Positions 1,341-16,408 of a DNA stretch of 64,000 nt are shown here, piece after piece. The stretch is taken from positions 1-64,000 of the forward strand of contig JAFXPN010000026.1 in the NCBI GenBank assembly GCA_017527865.1, in the 5' to 3' direction. Position 1 is the first letter of the stretch. The number at the start of each line of letters is the position of its first letter. The stretch comes from Clostridiales bacterium (GTDB lineage Bacteria; Bacillota; Clostridia; Saccharofermentanales; Saccharofermentanaceae). The notes beneath the pieces were generated by a model. The model was not told the origin of the DNA. It did no database searches and saw only the letters and a list, made by a program, of their open reading frames with translations. The position numbers and the translations under genes were made by a program.

Positions 1341-2252
1341 ATGATGTTTTCATTATCAAGATCAAGAATTGTTGCCCGACTTACCGCAATCACAATATTC
1401 ATAGCTGTATTCCTGAATTATACCGGCATTCAGGATGTCCGTGCCGACGGGTTTAATCCCGGAATAGAGACATTTGTAACCAGTCTGTATTCGGATTGTC
1501 TGGGAAGATCACCGGACCCTTCAGGTTTAAACGATTGGTGCACCAAACTTGCCAACGGGACGGTCTCGGGAAAACAATGCGCTTATGGTTTCTTCTTCAG
1601 TTCGGAGTTTCAGACAAAAGCCAATCAGTGGGACGATGACACTTTGATCAATGCATATTACAGAGTGTTCCTGAACAGACCTGCTGATCCCTCGGGAAAA
1701 TCCTATTGGGCAAGCCGGATAGCAAACACCACCAACGACATCAGCATTCTGTTTACGGGATTCGCCGATTCGGCGGAATTTGCAAACAAGTGCGCATCTT
1801 ACGGGATCACGGCAGGAAATCACATAGATGTACCGACTACTGTAAGGAGTACCGGCTCCGAAGCTGCACACTCCACATCTGTCGGAACCGTAAGCTTCGA
1901 CGGGCTTCAGATCACATTCGGCGGGTACTATGAATTCGTCACCCTCCGGAATATGTTCTCCGATCTGGACGGAGCAGATATAATAAGGATCCCCTTCCAC
2001 ATCAAAAACACAGGAAGAGAAAACAATTATCTCAATCCCTTTGCAGTTACGGCTTACGGTCCGTCAGGACGCGAGGTTGACGAGGTAGGCATATACTTTG
2101 ACGGAGACAACCTGTGGGAGTCTGACAGCCTGCGTCCCGGCGCTGAGGATGACAGGGCATTTTATCTGGTCTATGAAGGAAACGGCACGTATTCTATCGA
2201 TCTGGGTTATTGGAGAACCGAAGTGGAAATCTCTTTTAACGTCACAAAATGA
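1341..2252 (+). CDS. secreted DUF4214-domain protein
   Basis: A 303-residue protein. I chose the ATG at 1341 rather than the in-frame GTG at 1335 because AGCGAGG lies at the right distance before it. A signal peptide (to about residue 36, VRADG) precedes a DUF4214 region (about 40-150) with the repeated pattern YxDCLGRxPDPSGLxxW and YxxFLNRPADPSGKxYW. The C-terminal half (about 175-303) is an all-beta domain similar in style to DUF4352. DUF4214 is common in clostridial secreted proteins and its function is not established. A second DUF4214 protein lies at the other end of the window. The 3' end overlaps the convergent kinase gene by 11 nt. Confidence 0.75.
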   Translation: MMFSLSRSRIVARLTAITIFIAVFLNYTGIQDVRADGFNPGIETFVTSLYSDCLGRSPDPSGLNDWCTKLANGTVSGKQCAYGFFFSSEFQTKANQWDDDTLINAYYRVFLNRPADPSGKSYWASRIANTTNDISILFTGFADSAEFANKCASYGITAGNHIDVPTTVRSTGSEAAHSTSVGTVSFDGLQITFGGYYEFVTLRNMFSDLDGADIIRIPFHIKNTGRENNYLNPFAVTAYGPSGREVDEVGIYFDGDNLWESDSLRPGAEDDRAFYLVYEGNGTYSIDLGYWRTEVEISFNVTK

Positions 2253-3273
2253 GATGTCTTTCGACCCCAATGGTCAACATAAGAGTTAAGTACATTAATA
2301 AAAACGCGCCTATGACATACAGGATCCGCACAGGATATCTGATATAGATCCTTTTATCGTTGATGAAAGGAAATGTGTCATATATTCCTGTCCACGAATT
2401 ACACATATCAATGGCGGACAGACAAAAGATCAGATAGAAAACTCTCGTGGTATAGACCTCAATTGCCGGAGCATCGTCAACTTGCATAGTAAGACAGCAA
2501 TACATAAAGAAAAAATAGCCTGCTACCGCGAGCGGTACCTTCCACCATGTCATGGTGCGGAAACCCGGCGGCGGGAACAGGGGTTTGAGATTCGCATTCA
2601 CGGATACCCTGCGAAGGAGCGCATTCTCGAACTGACCTGCATTCTCATAGCGGCCGTCGGGATCAAAACTCATCGCCTTATCTGCGATCTTCTGTATTCT
2701 GGCGTCGGAAGGGAATGCATCCTTGAGCATCCTGCCCACGGCATAAATGTCGGTCCTGACATCAGACTGCATGAATCCGTACTGCTCGGGCGCAGCTCGT
2801 CCTTCGGTACCCAATGCGACCGTGTCTTTGTCTTCTCCCGGCTTATAGACTTTTGCAGCATCATAATCGATGATGACGACTTGGCCCTTATCCCTCACCA
2901 TGATGTTAGACGGTTTGAGGTCCCTGTGTATTATCGGCTTGGGTGCGCTGTGAAGAAACTTAAGGCCCTCAAGAAGATCGATAAAATAAGAAAGCTTATC
3001 GTTCTTAGGCATATCGGGATCATCGATCACGGTATCGAAGGTATTACCCCTGATATATTCCTCGATAACGGTCAGTTTTCCGTCTTCCTGATCTATGAGC
3101 CTTATCACGCGGGGCACATGTCTGTCGCTGTTAGTGCTCAGGAACTCATAGACGGCACGGTCGTAGTGAGTCAGGCTTTTCGAGTAGAAGATATCGCCCG
3201 ACACCTCGTCCATCACAAGGCTTCTCCCGGAGTCGTAATGATATAATTCTCTGTAAGGAAAACCGTCGCTCAT
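2242..3273 (-). CDS. membrane-anchored Ser/Thr protein kinase (Hanks type)
   Basis: A 343-residue protein with a cytoplasmic kinase domain (about 1-215) and three hydrophobic C-terminal helices. Likely ATP-binding Lys32 and Glu43 can be seen, then the catalytic loop HRDLKPSN (116-123). The metal-binding DFG motif is replaced by DYD (136-138), and APEQYG (161-166) is the substrate-binding segment. PknB-family extracellular PASTA repeats are absent, so it differs from the cell-wall sensor kinases. It is divergent from an XRE regulator with only 29 bp between start codons, which suggests a functional pair. No Shine-Dalgarno is visible; a TATAAT box ends 6 nt before the ATG, so the mRNA may be leaderless. 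Confidence 0.85.
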   Translation of the reverse strand: MSDGFPYRELYHYDSGRSLVMDEVSGDIFYSKSLTHYDRAVYEFLSTNSDRHVPRVIRLIDQEDGKLTVIEEYIRGNTFDTVIDDPDMPKNDKLSYFIDLLEGLKFLHSAPKPIIHRDLKPSNIMVRDKGQVVIIDYDAAKVYKPGEDKDTVALGTEGRAAPEQYGFMQSDVRTDIYAVGRMLKDAFPSDARIQKIADKAMSFDPDGRYENAGQFENALLRRVSVNANLKPLFPPPGFRTMTWWKVPLAVAGYFFFMYCCLTMQVDDAPAIEVYTTRVFYLIFCLSAIDMCNSWTGIYDTFPFINDKRIYIRYPVRILYVIGAFLLMYLTLMLTIGVERHLIL

Positions 3274-3302: not shown

Positions 3303-3734
3303 ATGAATACCGATAAAACTGATGATCTTATGAACATATTAAACTCCGTGGAAGACAACGCGGAACTTAACGAATATGTCAATGATATAGATGACAGATA
3401 CCCTGCGGGCTTTGCAGATTATATGAAGCAGATCCTTGAGCAAAAAGGGATGTCGGTCGCCGATCTTCAGAAGAAGAGCCGCATAGACCGCACATATATC
3501 TATCAGATCATGGACGGCAGCAAGAACCCCGGACGCGATAAGATAATCGCCATGGCACTCGGCGCACAACTGACGCTTGAAGAATGCCAGAGAGCGCTGA
3601 AGACCGCTTCAGAGGGGATCTTATATGCCAAGAACCGCCGCGACAGCATTCTCATCTACGCAGTAAACAACCGCCTCAGCATAATGGAGACAAACGCGCT
3701 CTTAGAGGAGTATCAGACGCTTCCGCTGCAGTAA
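3303..3734 (+). CDS. XRE-type helix-turn-helix regulator
   Basis: A 143-residue protein. Residues about 35-95 form an XRE/Cro helix-turn-helix: MKQILEQKGMSVADL, then SRIDRTYIYQIMDGSKNPGRDKII. The C-terminal helical part (about 95-143) is not recognised. A weak AAAGG lies before the ATG. It is transcribed away from the membrane Ser/Thr kinase through a shared, overlapping promoter, so it may regulate the kinase gene or be phosphorylated by the kinase; that link is inference from the arrangement. Confidence 0.75.
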   Translation: MNTDKTDDLMNILNSVEDNAELNEYVNDIDDRYPAGFADYMKQILEQKGMSVADLQKKSRIDRTYIYQIMDGSKNPGRDKIIAMALGAQLTLEECQRALKTASEGILYAKNRRDSILIYAVNNRLSIMETNALLEEYQTLPLQ

Positions 3735-5754: not shown

Positions 5755-5780
5755 TCTTCATTTTTGATCCTCTTAAACCA

Positions 5781-5810
5781 AGGGGCTGTCTCGGCAATGA
5801 GGCAGCCCCT
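5781..5810. terminator. bidirectional rho-independent terminator
   Basis: The stem AGGGGCTG...CAGCCCCT is extended by a T-G wobble and CTC/GAG around a 6-nt loop. TTTG follows on the plus strand and a short T-containing tract on the minus strand. It lies between the convergent alcohol dehydrogenase and signalling operon. Hairpins of the same GGCTGtC/GgCAGCC type occur at 14401 and 57191. Confidence 0.85.
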
Positions 5811-5844
5811 TTGCTTATTGTATTCGCCTGCCGGTAAGTTCCGA

Positions 5845-8571
5845 TCATTTCTCCATGTACAGCAGGCCGAAAGTGCCGGCGCCGCAGTTAACGGCGATGG
5901 CGGGAGAAGCCTGCTTGAAGTAGATCTCGTCGAAGTCCATGCGCTTCTCGATCTGCTCGCGTATCCAGTCGGTGTCGCGCTTGCCGAGGCCGACATACGT
6001 GACAAACAGTACGCGTTTATCGATCGCAGAAGGTGTAGACAAAGCCGAAGCGATATAGCTCTTCCATGCCTTCTCGCGCGAGCCGAAGTAAGTCATTCCG
6101 ACACCCATCTTACCCTTGCGCAATACAAGAACGGGGCGTCCCATAAGGGATTTCACGACATTTGCCGTACCGGTGCCGACCTGTCCCGCACGCGCGAGGA
6201 AGTCGAGATTATCGACGATAAAGCTCGTGCGGATCTTCTTCTTGACGATCTCAAGCTCCTCTATGATCTTCTCCGGCGGCATGCCGAGTTCAACCATGCG
6301 GGCAGCCTCGAGCGCGAGCAGTCCCTGTCCGCTCGACAGATGCGAAGAATCGATGACAAATACGTTGTCGAATGACCTGGCAGCATCAAGAGCCGGCTTG
6401 TATCCGGAATTTTCTACCAGACTTGAGATAGAGATATGAATGACATTATTGGCATATGACAATTGCTTGGCGAAGAATTCTTCCGCCTCTCTTACGTCAG
6501 GTCCCATAGGCATGACCGCATGGTCGGGGTTCTCCATATACTTAAGAACACCCAGTGTCTCTATCTCCATGCCGTCCTTGAAGATGCCTTCGGCGGTACG
6601 TACTTTATGAGGAAGAATACCGATCTTGTATTTGCGGATAACTTCAGGCGTCAGGTCGGCTACACTCTCTGTTGTGATGACAACACTCTTACGCTTTTTG
6701 CTTCCGTTCATCCATGAGACGGATTCTTCTGCGATCTCGCTTCTCTGTCCCGTGATCTTAACGATCTCCTTGGGAAGGATGCTGTACAATTCATTCTCGA
6801 GTTCTTCGCCGCTTACCGGCTTGCTCAGGTACCCGTCGAAATTCTCCCTTGAATACAATGCCCGGTTCTCTTCATCCGCATTCGCGGTAAGGATGACGAT
6901 GGCAGTCTCGCGGCATCTTCCTCCCGTCTGTTCCTTGATCTTACGGCGGCACTCGATGCCGTCCATCCCGGGCATCAGGTGATCCATGAAGATCGCATCA
7001 TACTTGATATTAAGCGTTCTCCGCAAAGCCTCTGTGCCGCTCGTAACTGTATCGATCCGGACTTTGGTGCTGCGCAGCAGCTTGCTTACGACCATGAGGT
7101 TTGCTTCATTGTCATCGACAACGAGGATCCTCGCTTCAGGCGCTTCGAACCTGGGCGCGTACTTCTTGCGCTTGGCAGCAACGTGGGAATTCTCGAAATC
7201 ATACTGTCCTATGGAACCATCACGCTCAACCCTCTGCGGGATCTCTATGATAAATGTCGATCCCTTCTTATAGACGCTGTTGACCGTGATCTTACCGCCC
7301 ATGAGATCCACAAGCTGCTTTACTATGGACAGACCCAGACCGGTTCCTTCGATATGCTTGTTGACATTCTCATCGACTCTCTTAAATGCCGAGAACAGAT
7401 ACGGAATGTCTTCACTCTTGATGCCGATTCCGGTATCCGAGATCATGTAGATCATGTTGCAGATCTTATCTTCCTTCATCTCGCACTGAACGGAGAACGT
7501 CACCGAACCTTCACTCGTATATTTGATCGCGTTGTTGATAACGTTTATGAGGATCTGTTTGATGCGCACTTCGTCACCGACAAGCTCGGCAGGGATATCA
7601 GGTGATACATCGACATTAAAATCGAGTTTCTTGTCCTTGGCTCTGATCCAGAGCATTCCGACGATATCAGAGAGCATATCGCCCGTGCGGTACGGCTCGA
7701 TCAGGAGCTGCATGCGGCCCGACTGGAACTTGCTCATATCAAGGATATCGTTTATGAGATTAAGAAGCAGCTTGCCTGCCGCCTTGATGTTGACGGCATC
7801 CTCGATGACTTCCTCGCTTTCCGCCTCTCTTAATATCATCTCGTTAAGACCGATGATAGTGTTGATAGGCGTCCTTATCTCATGGCTCATGTTCGAAAAG
7901 AAACTGTTCTGCGCTTTATTCAGCTTCTCGATCTCCTTATGCTGTCTCTCCGCTTTAACAAGCTGGTAGTTCAGCCTGTACCTGGTGTAAGACATGATGA
8001 TGCCCATAAGGACCTGGAACACGGAAAAGATGGTAAAGTTGGCCATCTCATTGGGCTCGATCGCGCCCTTGTTCACCATGATATAAAGGAATGCCATGAC
8101 GACGCAGTTCGATGTCAGGGAAACGGCTACATAAGCTATGGGGTTAAAGTAAACACACAACGGGACAACGAGCGCCACGGTCATGAACAGCGTGGTATCG
8201 ACGGTTCCTCTTGCCATGGAATTAGCGATAACAAGCGATATTACCCATGCATAAAGCGAGATTCCCATGAAGTGATTGATGCCGTATACCGTCTTATACC
8301 TGGTCGCATAATCCTTCATCGCATAATGAACGCCGGCAAACCAGACGATAACCACTATAAGCAGCCAGATATAGCACAGCTGATGATAAAGGACCGTTGT
8401 TCCTCCGAAGTAAGGAGGATATACGAATGTCAGCACGAGGAAGATGACCGCCGTGATAAACGATATGTACATCGTGACGCGTGTAGGACCTACCGACTCA
8501 TAATATGTTGACTTTACTGCCTCAGGATCATTGGAAGACGGCTTTAACAGATATCTGAATATGTCTCTCAT
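5845..8571 (-). CDS. hybrid histidine kinase-receiver fused to a C-terminal DegV domain
   Basis: A 908-residue protein. About six membrane helices (31-200) are followed by a short coiled coil, HisKA with phospho-acceptor His230 in NMSHEIRTP, HATPase (about 330-450, DTGIGI and GTGLGLSIV), and a receiver with phospho-acceptor Asp530 in FMDHLMPGMDG. A complete DegV domain fills about 628-908, beginning KSVVITTESVADL and including HISISSL and RAGQVG. DegV proteins bind fatty acids; FakB is the best-known example and presents fatty acid to the kinase FakA. I infer that the output may depend on, or sense, a lipid ligand. It is the last gene of the operon and starts inside the stop of the upstream kinase gene (ATGA overlap). 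The fusion is in one uninterrupted frame. Confidence 0.9.
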   Translation of the reverse strand: MRDIFRYLLKPSSNDPEAVKSTYYESVGPTRVTMYISFITAVIFLVLTFVYPPYFGGTTVLYHQLCYIWLLIVVIVWFAGVHYAMKDYATRYKTVYGINHFMGISLYAWVISLVIANSMARGTVDTTLFMTVALVVPLCVYFNPIAYVAVSLTSNCVVMAFLYIMVNKGAIEPNEMANFTIFSVFQVLMGIIMSYTRYRLNYQLVKAERQHKEIEKLNKAQNSFFSNMSHEIRTPINTIIGLNEMILREAESEEVIEDAVNIKAAGKLLLNLINDILDMSKFQSGRMQLLIEPYRTGDMLSDIVGMLWIRAKDKKLDFNVDVSPDIPAELVGDEVRIKQILINVINNAIKYTSEGSVTFSVQCEMKEDKICNMIYMISDTGIGIKSEDIPYLFSAFKRVDENVNKHIEGTGLGLSIVKQLVDLMGGKITVNSVYKKGSTFIIEIPQRVERDGSIGQYDFENSHVAAKRKKYAPRFEAPEARILVVDDNEANLMVVSKLLRSTKVRIDTVTSGTEALRRTLNIKYDAIFMDHLMPGMDGIECRRKIKEQTGGRCRETAIVILTANADEENRALYSRENFDGYLSKPVSGEELENELYSILPKEIVKITGQRSEIAEESVSWMNGSKKRKSVVITTESVADLTPEVIRKYKIGILPHKVRTAEGIFKDGMEIETLGVLKYMENPDHAVMPMGPDVREAEEFFAKQLSYANNVIHISISSLVENSGYKPALDAARSFDNVFVIDSSHLSSGQGLLALEAARMVELGMPPEKIIEELEIVKKKIRTSFIVDNLDFLARAGQVGTGTANVVKSLMGRPVLVLRKGKMGVGMTYFGSREKAWKSYIASALSTPSAIDKRVLFVTYVGLGKRDTDWIREQIEKRMDFDEIYFKQASPAIAVNCGAGTFGLLYMEK

Positions 8572-11135
8572 GCCATATCACCTCCTTTTGCAGTATCATC
8601 TTCCGGCTCGAATTCGAGGACCTCATCGTCATCTTCTTTTGCCGGAATATCCATAAAGAGCGCTTTGATCTCACCGCATATCCTGCCGTAATCCATCAGC
8701 GCCTGTTCGTGATTGGCTGTTATGAACTCTTCATCGGTAGCTTTGGCTGCCATCTCGAGAGCCTTGGCTTCCTCAGACAGATCGACCGCGCCGATCATCT
8801 TCGAAGTGCTCTTTAACGCATGTACCAGGATCTCATAATTATGCCAGTCCTTCTTGCCGTAATAAGCTTTCATGGATTCGATCTTCTCTGCAGACTCGGA
8901 TGCGAACTGGATAAGGAGCGATTTGTAGAATTCCTCATCATCCACACAGTACTTAAGTCCTGCGGCAGTATTGATGCCTGCTGCATATAGTTTGTCCATG
9001 GGATCGGTCTCGGGTTCAGCCGTCTTGACCGTGGCCGGCTCCTCTTCATAAGGCGCGTTATCTTCTTCGGCCTCCGCACCGTCATCATAGGAGATCGACT
9101 TCTTGGGCAGAACGGCCTTCAGGACACGCTCCAGCTCCTCAGTCTCCACAGGCTTGCTTACGAATCCGTCGAATCCCTCTGCGAGGAACATCTGCTTGGC
9201 CGAACTCATAGCGTTCGCAGTGAGCGCAACGATCGGGATGGACACATTGAGACCGGATACATCCGTACGTATCCTCTTCATCGCCTCAACACCGTCCATG
9301 CCGCTCATCATGTGATCCATGAAGATGATGTCGAATACCTTCTCGCGGCAGATATCGATCGACTCCTGACCCGAAGTGGCCGTTGTCAATTCCATGCCGT
9401 AACGGGAGAAGATGCTCTTTGCCACTACGAGGTTCATCGACTCATCGTCAACAACAAGCGCGCGCACGCCGTTGCAGCGCATCTTCTTGACATTCGGATC
9501 GCGGTCGCCGACCGACGAATTAAGGACGGAGACTACCGGGAAACAGTAGAAAGGCTTTTCGAGGAGCCTTACGCGCGAATTCTTCGGAAGGACCATGTCA
9601 GAATTCGCGACTACCGAGACGACCATATCGCGGGCCAGCTGTTCGAGCAGTTCGACATTATCGAGATACTCATCCTCTCCGACAAAGACATGTGTCAAAT
9701 GGATGGAATCGCGGAGCAGCTTCAGGTTGCTCGCATTGTTAACACGGTGCATCTGAACGCCGAGTCCTTTGACGATATTGAGCACCATCGAGTTATAGTA
9801 ATCGCGCACAGCCGGATTCTCATATTTCTCAAAGTGAAGGAAGGCTCCGAGACACAGCTTGTCGGGGTTAGCGACAGACATGCACGAGACGGGATCGACA
9901 ACTTTCTGAGGGATGCTGACATGCACCGTCGTTCCGACGTCGGGCTTGCTGTCGATGGTCATGAAACCTCCGAGCAGCGAGACGAACCCCGATACGATCG
10001 CAAGGCCAAGGCCCAATCCGCCGCCCTTCCTTGTGCGCGACGAATCCGCCTGATAAAAACTCTCATAGACTTTCTCGAGTTCGTATTCGGTCATGCCGAT
10101 GCCGGTGTCAGTGACCTCGATACAGAGGTTGACGCCGTACTCATGCTCTTCGGCCAGGATCCTTACATATACACCGCCCTTCTGCGTATATTTAAGGCCG
10201 TTGCTGATCAGCGCCTTAAGGATCTTCTTGAGCTTGCTTACATCCGTATTCATAACCGCCGGTATCGCGGGATCAACATCGATGATGAGCTCGACATCCT
10301 TTGACTTGTACTGCTTAATCTCCGTAACAAGATCATGGAGGACAGACGAGAGCATATAGTCCTCGTTGTTACGGACCGCCTTGTGACGGTCAATCTCGGA
10401 ATAATCAAGGATATCGTTTATCTGTTCGGCCACTCTGCGGCCTGCATTGCGGACAGCTGTCATGTCGCTTTCCACAGCGCGGTTACGGCTCTTCTCTATG
10501 CAGATCGTAGACAGGCCGATGATGGCATTGACGGGAGTCCTTAATTCATGCGATACGTTTGCAAGGAAGTCGTTCAGTTTCTCCGTAGCCTCCTTGAGCT
10601 GGATGACCTCATCCTTGGATCTGTTCAGGACTTCCTGCCACTTGTCTATGATTATCTTGGCAAATCTTCCTATGAAGAAGACCATGATAAAGTGAAGGAT
10701 CGACCGGGAGATGATAAGTGCATCGAAAGGCTCATGCGCGATCACCATGGCGGCGATGGCATAGATCATGGTGCCGTAGAACGTAAACTGGCAAAGAGAG
10801 ATAAGGGCCTTGATGCCCGTCATTGTAAACAGCATTATCAGGGCCGATATGACTACGGCAAGATCGAATGTACTCGTCGGATGAGTCCCGTAGAAGAAGT
10901 ACGTTCCCATCATGAGGATCGCATATATCCAGATCCTTACGCCCGCCGGGGTATCATGCCTTAAGTAAAGGATCCAGCTGATAACCACTCCCGCAACGAC
11001 CAGCAGGAGCATCCATTTCTCCCACCCCATAAGGAACGACTCGATTATGAGCGCTACCGAGAAAAGCGTATAGCTGATAAGAAGAGTAAGGTGTGATGTC
11101 TGAAATAACCCGTTGCTTTCGGTTTCCCTTGTCAT
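8568..11135 (-). CDS. hybrid histidine kinase with receiver and HPt domains
   Basis: An 855-residue protein. Five or six membrane helices (about 15-160) lead to HisKA with His196 in NVSHELRTPVNAIIG, HATPase with DTGIGM and GGGLGLGLAIV, a degenerate receiver-like region (about 415-540), a true receiver with FMDHMMSGMDG, and an HPt domain with His772 in VHALKSTSKMIG. It therefore carries every phosphorelay step except a DNA-binding output, so phosphate could pass by HPt to the receivers of neighbouring proteins. It starts 6 nt after the REC-GGDEF-REC-HD-GYP gene and overlaps the DegV-fused kinase by 4 nt. Confidence 0.9.
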   Translation of the reverse strand: MTRETESNGLFQTSHLTLLISYTLFSVALIIESFLMGWEKWMLLLVVAGVVISWILYLRHDTPAGVRIWIYAILMMGTYFFYGTHPTSTFDLAVVISALIMLFTMTGIKALISLCQFTFYGTMIYAIAAMVIAHEPFDALIISRSILHFIMVFFIGRFAKIIIDKWQEVLNRSKDEVIQLKEATEKLNDFLANVSHELRTPVNAIIGLSTICIEKSRNRAVESDMTAVRNAGRRVAEQINDILDYSEIDRHKAVRNNEDYMLSSVLHDLVTEIKQYKSKDVELIIDVDPAIPAVMNTDVSKLKKILKALISNGLKYTQKGGVYVRILAEEHEYGVNLCIEVTDTGIGMTEYELEKVYESFYQADSSRTRKGGGLGLGLAIVSGFVSLLGGFMTIDSKPDVGTTVHVSIPQKVVDPVSCMSVANPDKLCLGAFLHFEKYENPAVRDYYNSMVLNIVKGLGVQMHRVNNASNLKLLRDSIHLTHVFVGEDEYLDNVELLEQLARDMVVSVVANSDMVLPKNSRVRLLEKPFYCFPVVSVLNSSVGDRDPNVKKMRCNGVRALVVDDESMNLVVAKSIFSRYGMELTTATSGQESIDICREKVFDIIFMDHMMSGMDGVEAMKRIRTDVSGLNVSIPIVALTANAMSSAKQMFLAEGFDGFVSKPVETEELERVLKAVLPKKSISYDDGAEAEEDNAPYEEEPATVKTAEPETDPMDKLYAAGINTAAGLKYCVDDEEFYKSLLIQFASESAEKIESMKAYYGKKDWHNYEILVHALKSTSKMIGAVDLSEEAKALEMAAKATDEEFITANHEQALMDYGRICGEIKALFMDIPAKEDDDEVLEFEPEDDTAKGGDMA

Positions 11136-11141
11136 ACTGTT

Positions 11142-13505
11142 TTAACCCTTCAATCTGTAGTCTTTGTCCTCTTCGATTATCGAGAGCATTATATCCGCTA
11201 TCACAGGATCGAACTGTGTTCCCTTGCCGTTTTGGATCTCGAGCTTTATATTCTCCTGAGGCAGGTGATCACGGTAGCTTCTGTCGGATGACATGGCGTC
11301 ATATGCATCCGCGACTGCGATTATCCGGGCCTCCTCCGGGATCTTATCCCCCTTGAGCCCGTCAGGGTAACCCGTGCCGTCATAACGCTCATGATGGTGC
11401 CTTGCGCCCAGCGCGAACTTCGGGTTGGCCTCTATCTTCTGCAGGATCGACGAGCCCATCTCAGAGTGCTTCTTGATCTGCTCATATTCATCCTCATCAA
11501 GCTCGCCGTTCTTGTTCAGTACATCGATCCTGATCCCTATCTTCCCTACGTCATGCAGGATGCCGATCATGTAGATCTCATCCTGTCTTGCATCCGAGTA
11601 ACCGAGCCTCTTCGCTATCATCTTGGAATACTCCGCCACGCGGCTGCTGTGACCCCTTGTATACAGATCCTTGGTCTCGATGGCTGCCACAAGTGCGCTC
11701 ACGACCTGCAGGAAAAGGTTCTTATTCTCACGCGTCTGCTGTTCAACCTCAAAATACAGCTGCTTCTGGAGCGTTACGAGTTCGATTATGTTGTTCACTC
11801 TGAGCAGGAGCACCTCGGGAACAAAAGGCTTGCGGATATAATCCATCGCACCTAATGTAAGACCTTCTTTCTCGGAACCGTCACTCTCGTCAGCCGTAAG
11901 GAAGATGACAGGTATCTTGGACGCAGCCGTATCGAGCGAATGCAGCTTCTTTATCGCCTCGTAGCCGTCCATGACAGGCATCTTGACATCAAGAAGAATG
12001 AGATCGGGCAGCTGCTCATCCTTTTCGAGCTGCGCGAAAAGTGCTTCTCCCGACTTCAAAGCAGTAACATGTATCCCGTCGGAACTTAATATCCTGCCCG
12101 CAACCTGAAGATTGATGGCATCATCATCAACGATATATACCCTCTTGCTCTTCCCGACCTTGACCTGCTCGGCATTGTTGCCGATAAACTCGGTCTCATA
12201 TGTGATCGCAAGGTTATCGATCCCCTTCTTCTTCCAGGAGCGCATGATGTGAGCGATAACCTTATCGACCGAATCCACCCTTATATCGGTAAGGAATACG
12301 AAGTATTGATTCTTCCTGTTGCGCATGAAGATATCGGACTTGCGCAGCGACTCTCTGATGTGATTGCCGAATTCATCGACGCTCTCGTTATACGCCGGAC
12401 TTATCTGTCCCGACGCAGGCTCGAGAGTGAACAGCACCTTGCATGCGTCGATGCGGTGTCTGATGATGTACCTGATAACGTAACGGTAGACGGGCGAGAA
12501 GGATTCCCTGTCGAGCTGCAGCGCGACATTCTGAATGGATCTCTCGCCGAGGATCTCTGAAAGAGCCTTGATATCCAGAACCTGGACTCCGTCAGTTTCC
12601 TCTTCGACATCGTCGTTGTACAGTTCGTATCCGTGCTTGCCGTTCTTCTTTACGATGTAAAGGGATTTGTCCGCGAGTTTGAGGAGCGAATTATATTCAT
12701 TGCCGTACCTCGGAACAAATATGCCTCCGACGGAAGCGCCGAGCGGGATGCTCATGTCGTCGCCCATGATCTCCTTGGCTTTGCGCACAAGACCGCTATT
12801 GATGTTGGCAGTGATATCCGCGACTCTCTCTTCTGTCGTTACGCCCGAAGCAAAGGCTACGAATTCGTCTCCTCCGATACGTCCGTACTTGCTTCCGGAA
12901 GGAAGAGTATCCCTTATGATATCCGCGAAAGAAACGAGCACCTTATCGCCCGCCTCGTGACCGTAGATGTCATTGACAAGCTTGAAAGAATCAAGGTCGA
13001 TCATCATAAGGCATCCGGTCGTATCCGAGCACATCCTGGACAGCTCCACGCCGGTCGCGGCTTTGTTAAGGAATCCCGTGAGCTTATCGATCGTCGCCTC
13101 ACTCTTAAGGCTCTGCATCTCCTGTGAATTGGACAGTATATTATCAAGCCTTCTGATCAGAACATCGGGATTAAACGGTTTTCTTATAAAGTCCGATACA
13201 CCGACCTCGAAGCCGCGGGTCTCGGTATCGGTATCTTCGTCTGCGGTAAGAAAGATTACGGGCGTCTTCATAAGGCCCTTGGCCTGCTCGAGTTCCCTTA
13301 ACTTAAGCAGCGTCTCGAAGCCGTCCATCTCAGGCATCTTGATATCAAGGAGTACGAGATCCGGCATGCCGTTCGCATCAACATAATCAAGAAGGGATCT
13401 GCCCGATTTAAGGGCAGTGACGCGCATATTGTTCTTACTTAAGATGTGGCCTGCAACCTTTAGATTAGCTGTATCATCATCTACGACTATTATCCACTTC
13501 GCCAT
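11142..13505 (-). CDS. c-di-GMP turnover protein REC-GGDEF-(degenerate GGDEF)-REC-HD-GYP
   Basis: A 787-residue cytoplasmic protein. REC1 has acceptor Asp54. The GGDEF domain keeps the active GGDEF motif at 211-215. A segment at 310-440 looks like a degenerate GGDEF (motif position occupied by RNRKNQYF). REC2 has Asp506. The HD-GYP domain has HD at 651-652 and GYP at 712-714. GGDEF domains make c-di-GMP and HD-GYP domains hydrolyse it, so this protein could do both, with each catalytic unit preceded by its own receiver. The two downstream hybrid kinases are the obvious phosphodonors. No PilZ or DNA-binding output is present, so the effector lies elsewhere. Confidence 0.9.
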   Translation of the reverse strand: MAKWIIVVDDDTANLKVAGHILSKNNMRVTALKSGRSLLDYVDANGMPDLVLLDIKMPEMDGFETLLKLRELEQAKGLMKTPVIFLTADEDTDTETRGFEVGVSDFIRKPFNPDVLIRRLDNILSNSQEMQSLKSEATIDKLTGFLNKAATGVELSRMCSDTTGCLMMIDLDSFKLVNDIYGHEAGDKVLVSFADIIRDTLPSGSKYGRIGGDEFVAFASGVTTEERVADITANINSGLVRKAKEIMGDDMSIPLGASVGGIFVPRYGNEYNSLLKLADKSLYIVKKNGKHGYELYNDDVEEETDGVQVLDIKALSEILGERSIQNVALQLDRESFSPVYRYVIRYIIRHRIDACKVLFTLEPASGQISPAYNESVDEFGNHIRESLRKSDIFMRNRKNQYFVFLTDIRVDSVDKVIAHIMRSWKKKGIDNLAITYETEFIGNNAEQVKVGKSKRVYIVDDDAINLQVAGRILSSDGIHVTALKSGEALFAQLEKDEQLPDLILLDVKMPVMDGYEAIKKLHSLDTAASKIPVIFLTADESDGSEKEGLTLGAMDYIRKPFVPEVLLLRVNNIIELVTLQKQLYFEVEQQTRENKNLFLQVVSALVAAIETKDLYTRGHSSRVAEYSKMIAKRLGYSDARQDEIYMIGILHDVGKIGIRIDVLNKNGELDEDEYEQIKKHSEMGSSILQKIEANPKFALGARHHHERYDGTGYPDGLKGDKIPEEARIIAVADAYDAMSSDRSYRDHLPQENIKLEIQNGKGTQFDPVIADIMLSIIEEDKDYRLKG

Positions 13506-14458: not shown

Positions 14459-16408
14459 TCAGCCGGCGTTAACGATAACGGAGAAGTCCTCAGCCTTCAG
14501 AGAAGCGCCGCCGACGAGACCGCCGTTGATGTCCTTCTGAGCGAACAGACCTGCAGCGTTCTTGGCATTGCAGGATCCGCCGTACTGGATCGTCATTGCA
14601 TCTGCAGAAGCCTGATCATAGAGTTCTGCGATAACGCCTCTGATGAATGCGCAAACTTCCTCAGCCTGCTCATCAGTAGCTGTCTTGCCTGTTCCGATAG
14701 CCCAGATCGGCTCATAAGCGATCGTGATCTGGCAGAGCTTGTCTTTAGGGATATCCTTGAATGCGCCGACGATCTGACCCTTGATCCAGTCAAATGTCTC
14801 GCCTGCCTCACGCTGTGCAAGAGACTCGCCGCAGCAGATGATGGGTCTTACGCCATACTTGAGAAGAGCAAGTGCCTTCTTGTTGACTGTCTCGTCTGTC
14901 TCAGCATTGTACTCTCTTCTCTCGGAGTGACCGATGATGCAGTAGTTAACACCCATCTTTGCAAGCCACAAAGGTGAGATCTCGCCTGTGAATGCACCCT
15001 TCTCCTCGAAGTGGCAGTTCTGAGCAGCGATCTTGATGTTGGAATAAGCAGCAGCCTCGACTGCAGCAGCGAGTGCCGTTGCGGGAACGCCGAGTGCAAC
15101 ACGGGACTTGGCATCCTTGATGAGGGGCTTCAGTTCATTGATGAGCTTGACTGCATCAGCAGGAATACCGCAGTTCATCTTCCAGTTGCCTGCTGCAAAG
15201 ATACGGCCGTTCTCCTTGTCGTTAAGGCAGTCGATGCCCGGAAGGACCTTGCCCTCGATGTACTCGAGAGAAGCGCCGCCGCCCGTGGAGATATGTGTAA
15301 CCTTATCAGCGAAGCCGAGCTTCTGGATAGCAGCTGCGGAATCACCGCCGCCGATGATGGAGATAGCATCAGACTCGGCGATAGCCTTTGCAAGAGCCTT
15401 TGTTCCTACTGCGAAGTTATCGAACTCGAATACGCCTGCAGGGCCGTTCCAGATAACTGTCTTAGCTTCCTTGATAGCTGCAGAGAACTTCTCGATAGTC
15501 TTAGGTCCGATGTCGAGACCCTCCCATCCGTCAGGGATCTCCATTGTGGGAACTACCTTGCTGTTGGCGTCGTTGGAGAAGTCATCTGCAATAACAGTAT
15601 CCTCAGGAAGAAGAAGCTTAACGCCCTTCTCCTCTGCCTTAGCCATGAGCTCCTTTGCAAGGTCTACCTTGTCTGCCTCAAAGAGAGAGTTACCGACTAT
15701 TCCGCCCATAGCGCCGATGAATGTATAAGCCATACCGCCGCCGATGATGATCGTGTCAGCCTTGTCGAGAAGGTTTGTTATAACGCCGATCTTGTCGGAA
15801 ACCTTAGCGCCGCCGAGGATCGCAACGAACGGTCTTGCAGGATTGTCAAGAGCGCCGCCGATAACGTCGATCTCCTTCTGGATAAGGTAACCGCACGCGG
15901 AAGGAAGGAAGTTTGCAAGACCTGCTGTCGATGCGTGAGCTCTGTGAGCTGTTCCGAATGCATCGTTTACATAGAGGTCAGCCATGGAAGCGAGCTCAGC
16001 TGCAAACTTGGGATCGTTCTTTGTCTCTTCCTTGTGGAATCTTACGTTCTCGAGCATGAGGATCTCGCCGTCCTTCAATGCAGCAGCCTTAGCCTTTGCA
16101 TCTTCGCCGATAACGTCAGCAGCGAGAGTAACGGGCTTGCCGATAAGCTCTGCAAGTCTTTCTGCAGCGGGCTTCATGGAGAACTTAGCCTCAGGTCCGT
16201 TCTTCGGACGGCCGAGGTGTGATACGAGGATAACCTTCGCGTTGTTATCAACAAGATACTTGATTGTGGGAAGAGCTGCAGTGATACGCTTATCGTCTGT
16301 GATAGCTCCTGTTTCCTTGTCGAGCGGTACGTTGAAGTCAACTCTTACGATGACTCTCTTGCCGCTGACATCCAAATCTTCAACATTCTTCTTAAGATAC
16401 TGTGCCAT
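14459..16408 (-). CDS. pgk-tpiA: bifunctional phosphoglycerate kinase-triosephosphate isomerase fusion
   Basis: A single 649-residue frame. Residues about 1-398 are a complete phosphoglycerate kinase ([19 protein letters not shown]; nucleotide-binding [18 protein letters not shown]). Residues about 404-649 are a complete triosephosphate isomerase (AGNWKMN with the catalytic Lys, IGHSERR with the catalytic His, [14 protein letters not shown] with the catalytic Glu). No start or stop separates them; a short linker [15 protein letters not shown] joins them. A PGK-TIM fusion is known from Thermotoga, where it forms a bifunctional complex. Both active sites look intact, so this gene would supply two glycolytic steps. 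CAGGAG precedes the ATG. Confidence 0.95.

Follow-up and report, generated by a model that had tools for sequence, protein, structure and literature searches.

A DegV gene beside a two-component system is known from Bacillus subtilis, where the order is degS-degU-degV. In RcsC-RcsD, two membrane kinase-like proteins are encoded together and have one Hpt between them, which feeds a response regulator. In S. aureus FakB1, the carboxylate is surrounded by a network of Thr62, Ser95, Ser171 and His270. The kinase reaction needs Arg173, FakA binding depends above all on Arg205, which is also first to touch the membrane, and Trp180 is a membrane-inserting residue (PMC8892158). The window analyzed here, the whole stretch of 64,000 nucleotides, holds a gene in which a hybrid kinase and a DegV domain are joined in a single protein.

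This gene (gene C, 5845 to 8571, minus strand), from a rumen bacterium, encodes a 908-aa membrane hybrid histidine kinase with the layout HK-REC-DegV, as revealed by Pfam, NCBIfam and the translation. The translation gives one unbroken frame from 8571 to 5845, as the earlier note had claimed; its coordinates also stand, while the strand, which it did not give, is minus, and coding on the plus strand was rejected because that reading contains several in-frame stops. On the minus strand, the N-terminal membrane part (residues 1 to 205; 7957 to 8571) shows about six membrane helices by inspection of its hydrophobic stretches. It is followed by HisKA (residues 221 to 285; 7717 to 7911; 2.3e-15) with the phospho-acceptor His230, HATPase_c (residues 332 to 446; 7234 to 7578; 2.3e-26), the receiver (Response_reg, residues 482 to 594; 6790 to 7128; 8.3e-22) with the phospho-acceptor Asp530, a linker (residues 595 to 628; 6688 to 6789) and the DegV domain (5848 to 6687). 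The DegV match (PF02645, residues 630 to 907, 1e-40) spans model positions 2 to 279 of 280 and scores 140 bits against a cut-off of 27, and TIGR00762 (DegV, NCBIfam) scores 147 against 99.7; all four Pfam domains exceed their curated cut-offs. Pfam and alignment thus bear out the order proposed earlier, from the membrane helices through His230 and Asp530 to a complete DegV domain. The protein carries the phospho-accepting His, the ATP-binding boxes and the receiver Asp/Thr/Lys of a hybrid histidine kinase, and His230, the N-box Asn, the G1-box Asp379, Asp530, Thr562 and Lys584 are identical in 21 of 21 aligned sequences.

The HK-REC-DegV fusion is present in 39 of the 59 genomes of the window genus, mostly as frames of about 900 to 918 aa, a few of them cut by contig ends. 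A contig scan turned up 48 loci that contain a DegV relative; where these are complete, nearly all are HK-REC-DegV frames, and among them two isolates, AB4001 and NC2004 (loci L040 and L070), show the same domain order and a frame about as long as gene C. The fusion occurs in two of the five genera of the window family. When a class-wide sample was searched, matches in frames longer than 700 aa appeared only in this family and in one other (f28), which we call Lachnospiraceae-type because loci named by their submitters as Lachnospiraceae group among its rows of the tree. In that second family, 65 of 348 sampled genomes gave a match at E <= 1e-55, with about 70 matching frames of 724 to 1166 aa, and a phylum-wide sample contributed nothing but stand-alone DegVs. 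The search for the same domain order that the earlier note had suggested therefore found it in the genus and in many genomes of the second family, isolates included.

The earlier note had named an assembly join, or a lack of relatives, as what would speak against the fusion, and a decaying gene might look similar. A few decayed or split copies do exist. In L161 (5100 to 7900), which belongs to the fused clade, the HK-REC (631 aa) and DegV (285 aa) frames overlap by 74 bases, as a split gene or a frameshift, and G040 (C3:126770-127171) retains a DegV remnant with an internal stop, about 67% identical to the window domain, as a decayed gene copy. However, independent assemblies and isolates share the domain order in dozens of full-length frames, and a pairwise dN/dS of about 0.02 to 0.07 shows strong purifying selection on the DegV part, so that a join or a decaying frame has next to no probability for gene C. 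Compared with the Lachnospiraceae relatives, the DegV part retains 55 to 58% identity against 8 to 25% for the membrane part, and this much better conservation of DegV than of the membrane sensor supports a signaling role in a relay.

Gene C is the last gene of a minus-strand run A, B, C, whose other two members the earlier note had missed. Gene A (11142 to 13505) encodes a REC-GGDEF-REC-HD-GYP protein and gene B (8568 to 11135) the partner hybrid kinase HK-REC-Hpt, both assigned by Pfam and by the loci of relatives. A gap of 6 bases separates A from B, B overlaps C by 4 bases, and a ribosome-binding-site-like AAGGAGG (8581 to 8587, minus strand) lies nine bases ahead of the start of C, while a terminator-like hairpin (5780 to 5811, plus strand) stands between gene C and a convergent iron-containing alcohol dehydrogenase gene. 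Judging from the spacing, the three genes probably form one co-transcribed operon. Most Saccharofermentans-like loci long enough to reveal it retain the A-B-C order, and the Lachnospiraceae loci the B-C order; both families conserve the kinase pair, its genes closely spaced or overlapping. Elsewhere in the window, one 649-aa frame (14459 to 16408, minus strand) reads by inspection of its translation as phosphoglycerate kinase followed by triosephosphate isomerase, a fusion known from Thermotoga, and a serine/threonine-kinase-like protein with C-terminal hydrophobic stretches (2242 to 3273, minus strand) adjoins a helix-turn-helix protein (3303 to 3734, plus strand).

Among pairs with both genes intact, all 35 examined contain exactly one Hpt; none has zero or two. 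In 27 pairs the Hpt belongs to the partner, so that HK-REC-Hpt is followed by HK-REC-DegV, and in the other 8 (type 2) HK-REC is followed by HK-REC-DegV-Hpt, with the Hpt behind DegV. A Pfam check of one type 2 pair found the Hpt in the DegV kinase and none in its 686-aa partner kinase even at E <= 1. One Hpt per pair is the pattern one expects if both kinases share a single relay, and the rule makes the two-kinase wiring directly testable.

The DegV domains of these proteins also stand apart in a tree of 98 DegV domains, which was a quick search with SH-aLRT supports and without bootstraps. A single branch (SH-aLRT 99) parts all 62 signaling-linked rows from FakB and the other free DegVs; 56 rows form the fused subclade (SH-aLRT 96), including L161 with its split gene, and six unfused signaling DegVs make their own group beside it (SH-aLRT 93). 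These six stand-alone DegVs are encoded in loci with HK-REC-Hpt kinases. In L127, L176, L177 and L179 the unfused DegV gene directly follows the HK-REC-Hpt kinase gene, while in L126 it has a REC-GGDEF gene on one side and a REC-HD-GYP gene on the other, with a dCache hybrid kinase one gene away, and L128 is arranged identically. The simplest reading is that adjacency came first and fusion later, with the direction tentative, which would make this a case where gene adjacency preceded gene fusion.

Gene pairing, the unfused versions and conservation link the DegV of gene C to a phosphorelay, which it would tune in our leading idea. We give about even odds (roughly 0.5) to the reading that it is a dedicated regulatory module derived from DegV, probably ligand sensing, in a two-kinase phosphorelay whose probable target is a c-di-GMP regulator. 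B and C would then be the two halves of one relay, and the single Hpt would hand phosphate on to an output protein with a receiver, which here is probably protein A. Tethered behind the receiver, DegV could shift the kinase/phosphatase balance or the phosphotransfer to the Hpt of B; an action on phosphotransfer is suggested by where DegV stands, after the receiver and, in type 2, ahead of the Hpt. It counts against this relay that a c-di-GMP enzyme gene does not always precede the pair: in the Lachnospiraceae-type family, the gene in that place encodes REC-HD-GYP, REC-GGDEF-REC-HD-GYP, REC-GGDEF-REC, a lone receiver or another, unrelated protein.

The DegV domain passes the DegV cut-offs of both Pfam and NCBIfam and shares the FakB fold, as would an ordinary FakB supplying FakA with fatty acids. 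However, no match to Dak2/FakA was found in the window genome (G000, 94.5% complete), which holds no DegV gene besides gene C, and FakA was likewise not found in 12 other fused genomes of the genus, with genomes 97 to 99% complete among them. Of the 31 genus genomes that have a free DegV, 30 also carry FakA; none of the remaining 28 does. Since the domain has also lost Arg173 and Arg205 and its clade is separate from the FakA-linked DegVs, we rejected it as a FakB, a role that we regard as very improbable. In about half of the genus, a FakA gene lies beside one or two free DegV genes (e.g., G052 C21:7416-10845); this cluster of FakA and free DegV is wholly missing from the window genome and many relatives.

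The residue changes were followed in 93 signaling and 44 free DegVs (FakB1 numbering). Position 205 is basic (R/K) in 40 of 44 free DegVs, whereas Arg occurs there in 1 of 93 signaling DegVs, which mostly have Phe, Ile or Met; the window protein has Gly in one alignment and Phe in later ones, neither of them basic. Arg173 is found in 44 of 44 free against 17 of 93 signaling DegVs, with Gln in the window protein, and at position 180, hydrophobic in 43 of 44 free DegVs, 77 of the 93 signaling ones have a polar residue (N, K, D, R or T). At position 270, Asn is present in 89 of 93 signaling DegVs (96%, against 5% of the free) and His in 32 of 44 free DegVs. This change is not diagnostic by itself, because the FakA-linked DegVs of the window genus also vary there, some of them lacking His270. 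Ser at position 264 is clade specific (97% of signaling against 2% of free DegVs). At position 62, T or S occurs in 57 of 93 signaling DegVs and Pro in the window clade, where the alignment at position 95 is ambiguous owing to a nearby insertion; Ser95 is probably kept in many other members. A loss of all FakB pocket residues, drawn from close relatives alone, was therefore rejected, and we restrict the claim of loss to Arg205, Arg173, the hydrophobic position 180 and the His-to-Asn change at 270. With residues of the carboxylate network altered in the subfamily, fatty-acid binding by the gene C DegV cannot be assumed from the family name, and the automatic label "DegV, fatty-acid binding" does not transfer to signaling DegVs. 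For the idea in the earlier note that a lipid ligand of DegV may tune the phosphorelay, the link to the relay stands, through gene pairing, unfused operon versions and conservation, and a fatty acid as the ligand can no longer be taken for granted.

At the former carboxylate site, the signaling DegVs carry a new and nearly fixed pair of pocket residues, Ser889 and Asn895 in gene C. A DegV that no longer binds a ligand might instead be there for docking or scaffolding, keeping C attached to B, or the receiver of C to the Hpt of B. The partial loss of FakB ligand residues, with Pro for Thr62 in the window clade, would suit such a role, as would the constant co-occurrence of B and C, and the unfused DegVs could dock in trans. 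However, a dead pocket would not need Ser889 and Asn895; because the two are fixed anew at the carboxylate end, a ligand of changed chemistry is favored over a dead pocket, and we consider pure scaffolding unlikely. The sensing module that we prefer would be derived from the DegV/FakB fold, would no longer be a substrate carrier for FakA and would most likely bind a small, perhaps lipid-like, ligand at the reshaped carboxylate end of its pocket. The other pocket residues vary across the signaling clade, and one ligand common to the whole clade is therefore doubtful.

An AlphaFold2 model of the REC-DegV part (444 aa, 44 sequences) reached a mean pLDDT of 84 and a pTM of 0.63, with low confidence in linker residues 610 to 627. 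Its DegV part matches FakB/DegV crystal structures with Z of 27 to 32 and rmsd of 2.3 to 3.1 over 252 to 280 residues; many of those structures hold bound lipid, and likeness of fold by itself does not show lipid binding here. Rigid coupling of REC and DegV was rejected in view of the low-confidence linker and the pTM, and a linker as flexible as the model predicts would give no rigid path for allostery, which counts against the relay reading.

The C-terminal place behind the receiver is the effector-domain position of response regulators. DegV could accordingly be the output, with phosphorylation of the receiver opening or closing it so that lipid is taken up or released without FakA, and the match to lipid-bound FakBs would fit. 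However, type 2 proteins have an Hpt after DegV, position 180 is polar in most members instead of hydrophobic as in free DegVs or membrane inserting as in FakB1, and neither FakA nor a known lipid receiver was found in the window genome; this direction of control seems quite improbable. The suggestion in the earlier note that the receiver may gate lipid delivery found no support: the window genome has no detected FakA and no other DegV, and the domain lacks Arg205, Arg173 and the hydrophobic membrane-insertion position.

A bolder scenario, to which we give somewhat less than even odds, is that a Firmicutes lineage turned a fatty-acid carrier fold into a sensor of lipid state, first separate near an HK-REC-Hpt kinase and later fused into the partner kinase; the status of free or membrane lipids would then set c-di-GMP by way of the two kinases in rumen and gut bacteria. 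Were the ligand a lipid, fatty-acid status would be linked to c-di-GMP control in organisms with almost no known signals. A carrier fold that lost its metabolic partner seems to have gained a place in a phosphorelay, in a widespread and apparently undescribed signaling class of rumen and gut bacteria.

The earlier note knew of no described system of this form, and our literature search, with subscription papers beyond its reach, likewise found no description of the HK-REC-DegV fusion, the one-Hpt rule or the separate DegV clade. Both components are of known kinds; their combination, the rule and the clade are apparently undescribed. The whole DegV domain of gene C has the fold of the FakB/DegV proteins (S. 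aureus FakB1, B. subtilis DegV). In contrast to FakB, it lacks Arg205, Arg173 and the hydrophobic insertion position, has Asn for His270 and is encoded in a genome without detected FakA, and the signaling DegVs form a separate clade, fused to or near hybrid kinases. The DegV of B. subtilis (3fys) keeps the FakB residues, is a separate protein and falls outside the signaling clade. Like hybrid kinases of the BarA/TorS/ArcB type, gene C has a HisKA-HATPase-REC core with all tested catalytic residues, but DegV takes the place that Hpt has in kinases of that type, and Hpt lies on the partner kinase or, in type 2, behind DegV. Unlike RcsC-RcsD, B and C both keep HisKA and HATPase, a DegV domain is present, and their output is likely a c-di-GMP enzyme.
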